DNA from: a virus
Length of the DNA: 23,522 nt
Direction: 5' to 3' (one strand)
IMG/VR virus record: IMGVR_UViG_3300029892_000018
Coordinates: 1 to 23,522 of that record
Shown: positions 1,326 to 3,627 of the stretch, piece after piece
Layout of the letters: every line of letters begins with the position of its first letter
Numbering within the stretch: position 1 is the stretch's first letter
Notes under the pieces: generated by a model
Told to the model about the DNA's origin: nothing
Seen by the model: the letters and a program-made list of their open reading frames with translations, nothing else
Database searches by the model: none
Made by a program: the position numbers and the translations under genes

Positions 1326-1724
1326 ATGAACGATAAAACCATTCGGAATGAAGAAATCTTTGAACTTTATAAACAAAAATTATTCACAATAAAACAACTT
1401 GCTTACAAATACAAAGTAAGCCGTAAACACTTAAGAGCAGTTTTCACTAAAAACAACATTGACATATGGGAGGATGAACATAAAAAAATCCGTAATGAAT
1501 ACATAGAAAAATACAGACAAAAACAAATGAGCAGAGAAGAAATCAGAAAAGCACTTAAAAAGTCAAGAAGTGCAGTTGATGGTATGCTAAGGAGTGCGGG
1601 CTTAGAATTTTGGGATGCGAAATTCCATCTTTCTAAGCCCAAAGAAAAACCCCGAAGTAAAAGCAAGTTTTATTCGTATGATGAATTTTTCAAGAACACT
1701 ATTTTTTACCGATTCAACGAATGA
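1326..1724 (+). CDS. Small protein with two tandem HTH-like units
   Basis: A 132-aa basic protein of unknown role, probably DNA-binding. It contains an apparent internal duplication: residues about 12-48 (ELYKQKLFTIKQLAYKYKVS onward, ending NIDIW) align with about 62-98 (EKYRQKQMSREEIRKALKKS onward, ending GLEFW). Each unit looks like a helix-turn-helix of the kind found in terminase small subunits, recombinases and homing-enzyme DNA-binding modules. The Lys/Arg-rich C-terminus (about 100-132) has no recognisable fold. The ATG is preceded by CGGAGCAAAA, a ribosome-binding leader shared with the leftward small genes nearby. It sits 23 bp after dnaB, so it is probably co-transcribed, and it ends before a convergent terminator. 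A regulator or replication-accessory role is inference only. Confidence 0.8.
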   Translation: MNDKTIRNEEIFELYKQKLFTIKQLAYKYKVSRKHLRAVFTKNNIDIWEDEHKKIRNEYIEKYRQKQMSREEIRKALKKSRSAVDGMLRSAGLEFWDAKFHLSKPKEKPRSKSKFYSYDEFFKNTIFYRFNE

Positions 1725-1864: not shown

Positions 1865-2101
1865 TTAAGAGACTTCCACCCAAATCTTAAACGGGAGATT
1901 TTCATCAGTATTATAAGGGCTATAAATATTCCCTTTTGAATCCGAAGCAAAACTTCTAACCGTTCCATCTTCAAAAAGGGAGTCCCAAATATCCGTTGGT
2001 TTAACAAGTCTGTATTTATCTTTCACTTTAGTTTTAACAACCAAAGGCAAAGGATTATAACCAAATTTATTGATTATTTCTTCAATTGAGTAGGTTTTCA
2101 T
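1865..2101 (-). CDS. Hypothetical small protein, leftward early-type gene
   Basis: A 78-aa protein I do not recognise. It begins MKTYSIEEIINKFGYNPLPL and has several Tyr/Trp residues, with no signal peptide or membrane segment. The start is supported by AAGGAGC (complement at 2110-2116) 8 bases before the ATG. It is the last gene of a leftward group (3013-3228, 2400-2747, 2123-2359, then this one) and ends at the convergent terminator. A longer minus-strand reading frame at 1735-2007 overlaps it in another frame but has no such ribosome-binding site. Genes of this size next to replication genes in phages are often early host-takeover or anti-defence genes; nothing in the sequence shows that here. 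Confidence 0.75.
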   Translation of the reverse strand: MKTYSIEEIINKFGYNPLPLVVKTKVKDKYRLVKPTDIWDSLFEDGTVRSFASDSKGNIYSPYNTDENLPFKIWVEVS

Positions 2102-2122
2102 AATTTTTTGCTCCTTTCTTTT

Positions 2123-2359
2123 TTATTTTGATTTTATTTCAATCTCTTTTATTGGGTGGAAGGTTAAGCCTTCTCCTAAATACTCATCTTCGGTTGGCAT
2201 TGCATTATAAAATCTTATACCGTAGCCGATAGACTTACCGCAGTTCAGGAAATCGCCTAAAATTGGTTTTACTCCATTCTTAACCCAGATATTAAATCTC
2301 TGGGAGTTGAACTCTAAAAATTCTTTTTCTATTTCATTTATTGATTTTCTCGTTTCCAT
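2123..2359 (-). CDS. Hypothetical small protein, leftward early-type gene
   Basis: A 78-aa protein of unknown function, starting METRKSINEIEKEF, with a charged helical N-terminus and a Gly/Tyr-containing centre (GKSIGYGIRFYN). No catalytic motif, signal peptide or membrane segment is seen. AAGGAGC (complement at 2367-2373) lies 7 bases before the ATG and fixes the start; this leader is nearly identical to that of the next gene downstream. It is separated from its neighbours by 21 bp and 40 bp and probably shares their transcript. Confidence 0.75.
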   Translation of the reverse strand: METRKSINEIEKEFLEFNSQRFNIWVKNGVKPILGDFLNCGKSIGYGIRFYNAMPTEDEYLGEGLTFHPIKEIEIKSK

Positions 2360-2399
2360 TTTTTTTGCTCCTTTATTTTAAGAGTATTTTCAAATTTAT

Positions 2400-2747
2400 T
2401 TAGTCCGCATTTATAAATTTGTGATATAAGTTTTCAAATTCTGTCCAACCCTCGTTCGATAAATATTCTATGAGATATTTTTTTGCGTCTTGCTTAATTA
2501 TTCGAGCTTCGCAAAATAAAGAGCCGTCTTCATTGACCATATAGATACCAGTCAAACCATTTATTCTCACCGCCGCAGGCTTATACCATCCCGAATTTGT
2601 ACTATTTAAATTTAAAACAGTCAAGCATTTATCCAAATCATCATGGATTGTATTGCCCACCCAAAATAATTTTCCCACAGTATCCCCGATTGTTTTTAAA
2701 GCTTTTATTCTGGCTTCATTGTCTTTTGTATTTGCCAAAGTTTCCAT
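2400..2747 (-). CDS. Hypothetical protein, leftward early-type gene
   Basis: A 115-aa protein I cannot assign. It starts METLANTKDNEARIKALKTI and contains the segment WYKPAAVRINGLTGIYMVN, which suggests a small mixed alpha/beta fold. No transmembrane or catalytic motif is visible. The ribosome-binding site is AAGGGGC (complement around 2753-2759), close to the AAGGAGC of the two genes downstream. The region just upstream on its coding strand (2748-3012) contains the lone CRISPR-like repeat and operator-like palindromes, so its promoter may lie there. Confidence 0.75.
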   Translation of the reverse strand: METLANTKDNEARIKALKTIGDTVGKLFWVGNTIHDDLDKCLTVLNLNSTNSGWYKPAAVRINGLTGIYMVNEDGSLFCEARIIKQDAKKYLIEYLSNEGWTEFENLYHKFINAD

Positions 2748-2834: not shown

Positions 2835-2853
2835 GGGCGTAAAAATTACGCCC
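2835..2853. promoter_or_regulatory. Operator-like palindrome GGGCGTAA-AAA-TTACGCCC
   Basis: A perfect 8-bp inverted repeat around a central AAA. Its right arm is part of the motif TTACGCCCCGAAGTAAA (2846-2862), which recurs with one mismatch at 3584-3600 and in shortened form at 3616-3627. It could be a repressor operator for the leftward genes or a short hairpin in a leftward transcript; the sequence does not decide. Confidence 0.4.
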
Positions 2854-2905: not shown

Positions 2906-2935
2906 GTTTTAATCGAACCATAGTGGAATTGAGAC
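2906..2935 (+). ncRNA. Solitary CRISPR-like repeat, possible RNA anti-CRISPR
   Basis: A 30-bp element beginning GTTTTAATCGAACCAT and ending GGAATTGAGAC. Length, GTTTTAA start, weak central dyad (CCA-TAG-TGG) and 8-nt 3' handle ATTGAGAC match the form of type I-B/III-style CRISPR repeats, whose handle is commonly ATTGAAAC. There is only one full copy, with no spacer array and no cas gene in the window. One base after it a strong hairpin begins (2937-2966), so a short repeat-plus-hairpin RNA is plausible. Solitary repeat units in phages are known, and some act as RNA anti-CRISPRs (Racrs) by occupying Cas proteins. Resemblance is seen directly; the function is inference. Confidence 0.5.
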
Positions 2936-2936
2936 T

Positions 2937-2966
2937 CCTCACCCGGCCGCCTTCCGCCGGGTGAGG
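2937..2966. repeat. G+C-rich hairpin, copy 1 of a 28-bp repeat
   Basis: An 11-bp perfect stem (arms CCTCACCCGGC and GCCGGGTGAGG) with an 8-nt loop, extremely G+C-rich for this genome. Positions 2938-2965 are identical to 3268-3295. It immediately follows the CRISPR-like repeat and lies downstream of the leftward 71-aa gene. It could be a terminator, although no clear T-run follows on either side, the 3' structure of a small RNA, or one end of a mobile cassette. Confidence 0.75.
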
Positions 2967-3012: not shown

Positions 3013-3228
3013 TTATTCGTAATTCTTATCTAATATCTCTATCCCATCATTCCTTGCAATTGCGATGACATTCTCATTGTCATATATACTAATAAATTCA
3101 TCCGTGCCCTTTAAGTCGTAATCGATGACCTTGTTCTCCGCAATACGAAGAGCTTCACTGAAGCTATCACAGCTTGCGATATCGGATGCTCCTTCCGGAG
3201 TCATCATCGCCAATCTAAAATTTGCCAT
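3013..3228 (-). CDS. Small acidic protein in a hairpin-flanked cassette
   Basis: A 71-aa protein with no recognised family. It starts MANFRLAMMTPEGASDIASC and has acidic stretches (ENKVIDYDLKGTDE; YDNEN), giving a clear net negative charge; no membrane or signal segment. The leader before the ATG has only a weak GAAGAG ribosome-binding site. Codon use differs from neighbours, with many G/C-ending codons (GCG, CCG, GTC, ATC, GAC, AAG) against the A-ending habit around it, suggesting separate acquisition. It is bracketed by two identical 28-bp hairpins and by a full and a half CRISPR-like repeat. Small acidic phage proteins beside CRISPR-like sequence make an anti-CRISPR conceivable, but nothing in the protein itself shows it. 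Confidence 0.7.
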   Translation of the reverse strand: MANFRLAMMTPEGASDIASCDSFSEALRIAENKVIDYDLKGTDEFISIYDNENVIAIARNDGIEILDKNYE

Positions 3229-3267
3229 ATAATCTCTTCGGCTCGCCGTCCTTCCAACGACTATTTA

Positions 3268-3295
3268 CTCACCCGGCCGCCTTCCGCCGGGTGAG
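3268..3295. repeat. G+C-rich hairpin, copy 2 of a 28-bp repeat
   Basis: A 28-bp sequence identical to 2938-2965, with 10-bp arms CTCACCCGGC and GCCGGGTGAG. It lies in the leader region of the leftward 71-aa gene, 40 bp before its ATG. With copy 1 it brackets that gene at an outer distance of about 360 bp. Identity over all 28 bases, loop included, implies recent duplication or active maintenance rather than two independently evolved terminators. Confidence 0.75.
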
Positions 3296-3301
3296 AATTA
3301 G

Positions 3302-3318
3302 AGTTTTAATCGAACCAT
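3302..3318 (+). repeat. Half copy of the CRISPR-like repeat
   Basis: AGTTTTAATCGAACCAT is identical to 2905-2921, the first half of the CRISPR-like repeat, in the same orientation. Beyond this the sequence diverges and lacks the GGAATTGAGAC end. A further related fragment, GAACCATTGAAAAC, lies at 3352-3365. The half copy is 6 bp from hairpin copy 2, so the order on the + strand is repeat, hairpin, gene (reversed), hairpin, half repeat. Confidence 0.6.
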
Positions 3319-3561: not shown

Positions 3562-3583
3562 CAAAGGGTAAAGCAGGTAATTT

Positions 3584-3627
3584 TTACGCCCAGAAGTAAA
3601 GACAATATGTAAATATTACGCCCCGAA
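3584..3627. repeat. Two TTACGCCC-type motifs upstream of terminase genes
   Basis: TTACGCCCAGAAGTAAA (3584-3600) and TTACGCCCCGAA (3616-3627) are spaced 32 bp apart in direct orientation. The first differs by one base from the copy at 2846-2862 on the other side of the 71-aa gene. Three copies in a regulatory stretch fit binding sites for one phage regulator. A caution is that GCCCCGAA is a common word in this genome. Confidence 0.4.

Follow-up and report, generated by a model that had tools for sequence, protein, structure and literature searches.

A single CRISPR repeat that runs into a strong hairpin in viral DNA raises the question of what the pair is and what, if anything, it does for the phage. 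We analysed virus record IMGVR_UViG_3300029892_000018 over positions 1–23,522; this contig of 23,522 bp, a fragment, is referred to below as the window. It encodes a DnaB helicase, a terminase, a portal protein and further late genes, and its G+C content (34.5%) is similar to that of the array contigs described below. A first-pass annotation, made from the sequence, had described one 30-bp repeat with a weak central dyad and an 11-bp G+C-rich stem one base downstream, and had read the locus as an RNA anti-CRISPR (Racr). The repeat is intergenic, between leftward genes at 2400–2747 and 3013–3228. The features of the locus are as follows.

1865–2747, minus strand: three small orphan genes (78, 78 and 115 aa), like an acr locus in size and setting only
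2835–2853, no strand assigned: operator-like palindrome GGGCGTAAAAATTACGCCC, with 52 bp between it and the repeat
2906–2935, plus strand: complete CRISPR repeat of 30 bp, GTTTTAATCGAACCATAGTGGAATTGAGAC, identical at 30/30 positions to repeats of type III-A-linked arrays; sense strand taken from the conserved host leader
2937–2966, no strand assigned: HP1, a G+C-rich 11-bp hairpin, CCTCACCCGGC-CGCCTTCC-GCCGGGTGAGG, which starts one base (T) past the repeat
2967–2979, no strand assigned: small palindrome TCACAAATTGTGA, the third stem in the predicted RNA
3013–3228, minus strand: orphan gene of 71 aa with HP1 and HP2 on either side; confident small alpha/beta model
3268–3295, no strand assigned: HP2, which repeats the 28-nt hairpin exactly and falls in the 5' region of the 71-aa gene
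3302–3318, plus strand: half repeat AGTTTTAATCGAACCAT, 17 nt exact to 2905–2921, 6 bp past HP2
3577–3591 and 3609–3623, no strand assigned: two more operator-like copies, before the rightward late operon

The element was compared with the repeats of real arrays. GTDB species genomes were scanned with a slightly relaxed repeat pattern, which yielded 12 contigs, and 7 of these held exactly the same 30 bases in true arrays. Exact copies numbered 80 in L002, 35 (and one more with a single change) in L003, and two to five in each of L005, L006, L008, L009 and L013, with a repeat spacing of mostly 64–71 bp. The repeat-bearing assemblies were chiefly Ignavibacterium sp. and Bacteroidota, and in the family of one host the repeat was present within two mismatches in 7 of 80 genomes. 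The first-pass annotation had made its reading depend on a match to a known CRISPR repeat; one was found at all 30 positions, confirming the single repeat at 2906–2935 as an exact copy of the repeat of real arrays. A chance match was rejected, as the probability of this 30-mer occurring in the window is about 1e-13. Rfam gave no match for the element at gathering score; below that score, CRISPR-DR2 aligned across all 30 positions with 22.2 bits against a cut-off of 37. The contig with the most copies of this bacterial-type repeat, L002 (JAHQXB010000052.1), is binned as a Jordarchaeia archaeon, probably a binning error.

The target system had been guessed as type I-B or III, and linkage to type III-A was found. 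One contig (G002:C42) encodes on one strand cas6, csm1/cas10, csm2, csm3, csm4, csm5, three CARF-domain genes, cas1, cas2 and a TPR gene, followed by a 36-repeat array. Long ORFs like its cas1 and TPR genes stand directly before the arrays of L005, L008 and L009, and in five of the ten assemblies that bear the repeat Csm1 scored above its curated cut-off. Judged by this linkage, the repeat is tied to type III-A; in assemblies other than G002:C42 it may also be used by a type I system. ORFs like REP-associated tyrosine transposases were noted by eye in or beside the cas loci of these hosts (L036, 10107–10748; L008, 41–625). The leaders of six host arrays are alike (local scores 46–285). Because these leaders lie upstream of GTTTTAATC, the plus strand of the window is, by comparison with the host arrays, the crRNA sense strand, and the 3' end of the repeat, ATTGAGAC, is the expected 8-nt handle. 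No host-like leader precedes the phage repeat: the upstream sequence scored 22–29 against the host leaders, while shuffles averaged 24 and host leaders scored 46–285 against one another.

A pairing of the phage with Ignavibacterium is plausible. Among the genomes searched, the phage DnaB was closest to that of Ignavibacterium (40–41%, 280–285 bits), compared with 231 bits for Bacteroidales and 220 bits for Thermoflavifilum. The host is unproven because none of 185 host spacers gave a convincing match to the window. Relatives of the terminase and structural genes were found, none of them with the repeat or the hairpin; DnaB, the 71-aa gene and the left part of the phage had no relatives in IMG/VR or INPHARED. 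The small neighbouring proteins matched no known Acr family, and the 71-aa and 115-aa genes had no match in named phages. In a single-sequence structure model (pLDDT 89), the fold of the 71-aa protein was nearest to phage proteins that include the Dmd antitoxin and AcrIF9, with insignificant E-values; the model of the 115-aa protein was too poor for use.

Other carriers of the repeat class had features of their own. Phage-like ORFs without cas genes accompany an array of seven copies of the same repeat in L038 (G005:C20, CAKZQG010000020.1, the same contig as L006; 8434–8863, minus strand), which, according to the record titles, shares its read set (SRR5214706) with the Ignavibacterium assembly L008, also repeat-bearing. 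A 132-aa helix-turn-helix protein of the window (1326–1724) has 28% identity to a protein of this phage and a weak match, far below cut-off (2.2e-4), to the Cbp1 family of CRISPR repeat-binding proteins. Virus L041 (IMG/VR 3300009417_000013) carries a three-repeat mini-array at 246–452; complementary arms of 27 nt (85%) enclose it and a T-run comes next, so that the array looks as though it had been placed in the loop of a terminator hairpin. In L004 (CALJNE010000089.1; 7452–7664, minus strand), one and the same insert of about 60 nt with two hairpins splits two CRISPR repeats after GTTTTAATCGAACCAT; the resulting unit of 86 bp is present in two copies with 99% identity, which looks like the copying of a repeat that was already interrupted. 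In an Ignavibacterium-family array (L099, G435:C12), one repeat is interrupted by palindromic, REP-like sequence (CCCGACTTGTCGGGA among others).

The window element is a solitary repeat unit, because the 23.5-kb contig contains neither cas genes nor a leader, and no other full repeat. The best other matches in the 100-bp flanks reached only 13/30 and 15/30, and no spacer-sized interval between repeats exists in the window, the next partial copy being the half repeat, 367 bp off in the same orientation. The earlier statement that no cas genes or array lie nearby therefore stands for the window, but it had overlooked this half repeat and the second hairpin, 0.33–0.4 kb away. The order of elements is repeat, HP1, leftward 71-aa gene, HP2 and half repeat. 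Because the contig is a fragment, a further array may lie elsewhere in the phage genome. An assembly chimera formed through the 30-bp repeat is unlikely, because an operator-like palindrome and the half repeat lie on its far side too and the leftward genes run across without interruption.

The main rival to a functional reading is a remnant, in which a phage mini-array derived from a host array by recombination has left an intact and a half repeat, with the hairpins and the 71-aa gene between them and no present function. The half repeat at 3302–3318, in the same orientation, gives this alternative some weight; mini-arrays of the same repeat class do exist in phages (seven copies in L038, three in L041), and array-end repeats of the class are often broken. 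However, the intact copy is without one mismatch although the array is gone, and nothing like a spacer-sized interval, second full repeat or leader has survived with it. We consider a remnant unlikely, though deserving of attention.

The 11-bp G+C-rich stem described one base past the repeat was found again at 2937–2966. HP1 has a perfect 11-bp stem, an 8-nt loop, a folding energy of -23.4 kcal/mol and a z-score of -5.5. It had been taken as the 3' end of an RNA, which is unsupported for a terminator: neither HP1 nor HP2 has a T-run on either strand, the terminator scan did not list the hairpin, and an intrinsic terminator was rejected. The window has no strong GC stem besides HP1 and HP2, and each of these is at most 6 nt from one of the window's two repeat copies. 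The hairpin was absent from eight of nine array-bearing assemblies, the match in the ninth being a phage contig (L043), and gave 1 weak match among 391 class members. A host REP-like palindrome as its source was rejected, as it is not multi-copy in host genomes. The first 52 bases (1–52) of L043 (G003:C28), which belongs to a repeat-bearing assembly, are 87% identical to window 3244–3295, GC hairpin included, and lie upstream of late genes. L043 is an unrelated phage with a PBSX-type terminase and an HK97-type portal match just under cut-off, and no CRISPR repeat adjoins its hairpin. Because the hairpin is absent from the host assemblies except for phage contig L043, where it has no adjoining repeat, it is an element in its own right, and we only infer a role for it in a Racr.

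The hairpins could be RNA structures that regulate the leftward 71-aa gene, in its 5' region and at its 3' end, and unrelated to the repeat. HP2 and its left flank are conserved in L043 beside late genes, and, read on the minus strand, HP2 has another stem after it. It is harder to explain in this way why the window's two strong GC stems adjoin its two repeat copies: when placements were randomised 200,000 times, none brought two hairpins within 8 nt of two repeat copies, a count that assumes independence and leaves aside joint duplication, which would break it. Such regulation is compatible with the other readings, and we rate it as a realistic possibility somewhat short of an even chance.

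The conserved hairpin also bears on whether the locus is a one-spacer crRNA gene, in which the repeat and the next 38 nt would form a crRNA against phages with the same hairpin element. Type III crRNAs do not need a second repeat. The downstream sequence matches the unrelated phage L043 at 27/28 nt, and phage mini-arrays that target rivals are known (PMC6858448). Yet such a guide would itself be folded, at -23.4 kcal/mol, and would match the phage's own HP2 too, and a single shared element may reflect a common function rather than targeting; we regard this gene as very improbable.

A role at the level of DNA would require no RNA; the repeat would be a decoy or recombination site, used either by Cas1-Cas2 or in exchange with host arrays. 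Its perfect identity to the host repeats fits such a role, and the half repeat and duplicated hairpins are the record of past recombination. Cas1-Cas2 usually requires a leader, however, and none is present here; nor was an integrase gene among the protein families found in the window. This role appears improbable.

The fold of the repeat also differs from the weak central dyad first described, as 8–9 bp of pairing join its two ends (GUUUUAAU/AUUGAGAC). In the RNA predicted for 2896–2985 the repeat ends pair (9 bp), HP1 is stacked directly behind them and a small third stem follows (z-score -4.5). The repeat thus retains beside HP1 the same end-pairing fold that is predicted for the array repeats. 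In the predicted fold of a Cas6-cut product, AUUGAGAC-U-hairpin, the handle is free and the guide is locked.

Sequence upstream of the repeat was compatible with regulation. The operator-like form GTAAWWWTTACGCCC occurs exactly, and in intergenic DNA, only at 2835–2853 (both strands), 3577–3591 and 3609–3623; shuffled sequences with up to two mismatches allowed contained 0.36 ± 0.58 such sites. These palindromes point to regulation of the DNA immediately before the repeat, although the site at 2835–2853 may serve the leftward gene starting at 2747 instead. No sigma-70-like or Bacteroidota-type promoter match was found directly upstream on the plus strand, though Ignavibacterial promoters are poorly covered.

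We propose that the solitary repeat unit is a candidate Racr directed at type III-A (Csm) immunity in Ignavibacterium-group hosts, and give this proposal an even chance of being right. A short plus-strand RNA would start within 2854–2905 and span the repeat and HP1. Host Cas6 would bind this RNA and cut it 8 nt before the 3' end of the repeat, and the downstream product, AUUGAGAC-U-hairpin, would bear a genuine 5' handle with its guide locked in the 11-bp stem. Csm proteins would then nucleate on a decoy RNA unable to guide, and the decoy would compete for Csm4/Cas10 so that host crRNAs were competed out. The handle end is where type III Csm complexes begin to assemble, and for this reason a product with a free handle and a locked guide would suit a Csm4/Cas10 competitor.

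Several observations argue for the proposal: the 30/30 array match, the type III-A genes on the same contig as an array, Csm1 in half of the ten assemblies, the retained fold, the free handle predicted for the cut product, an intergenic position without leader or cas genes, the upstream palindrome and the kinship of DnaB. Against it stand the lack of a recognised plus-strand promoter directly upstream, the lack of a host spacer matching the phage, the occurrence of the hairpin away from any full repeat (HP2 and L043) and the finding of no related phage with the unit. In addition, because the flanking genes are on the minus strand, the main transcript may be antisense. Whether the hairpin belongs to the Racr we judge to be about evenly balanced. 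The Racr reading of the first-pass annotation is still the best one and has gained an exact type III-A-linked repeat, but has lost the hairpin as a 3'-end terminator. A bolder version, which we think rather unlikely, is that fusion of an exact host repeat to a guide-locking hairpin makes a III-A-specific Racr that Cas6 cleavage turns into a handle-only crRNA decoy; the pair of repeat and hairpin, present twice around an orphan leftward gene, would then be a regulated counter-defence cassette that unrelated phages of these hosts exchange.

A published list of viral solitary repeats has 2,103 entries, covering all types but VI, and about 90% of their carriers infect CRISPR-bearing hosts (PMC10651486). 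RacrIF1, from a Thiocystis violascens prophage, is expressed, is cut by Cas6f and pulls Cas6f and Cas7f into an aberrant subcomplex (PMC10651486). Most of its inhibition came from the part upstream of the Cas6 cut and not from the handle side (PMC10651486), which by analogy may count against a Racr here. Like RacrIF1 and other solitary units (PMC10651486), our element is a single host-like repeat in a phage intergenic region without cas genes, keeps the repeat fold and, if the proposed pairing is right, matches the system of its hosts. It differs from RacrIF1 (PMC10651486) in its exact identity, its type III-A link, the hairpin one base past the repeat and the half repeat and second hairpin nearby, and in being known from sequence alone.

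Stand-alone leaderless repeats and mini-arrays of Sulfolobales viruses (PMC6858448) are likewise virus-borne, identical or similar to host repeats and without cas genes, and the stand-alone copies are leaderless. Unlike the mini-arrays of those viruses, which have leaders and spacers against related viruses (PMC6858448), the window holds one full repeat and no recognisable spacer. The Chiyouvirus mini-array (PMC10848311) also has repeats identical to a host array, but consists of four repeats and three spacers (PMC10848311), where ours is one repeat. No precedent for the repeat-hairpin arrangement was found in the papers examined. Solitary-repeat Racrs are already known, and what is new here is the perfect match to the repeats of likely hosts together with this unusual arrangement. 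If the proposal is true, it offers an early view of an arms race in which uncultured Ignavibacteria and phages are engaged. Most CRISPR types already have reported Racr candidates, but the mechanism was established for type I-F, in which it is the stem-loop side, bound by Cas6, that counts. Type III complexes, in contrast, are built around the 5' handle, so that a Racr that worked against type III-A through a locked guide would reveal another route by which decoy RNAs can defeat CRISPR.
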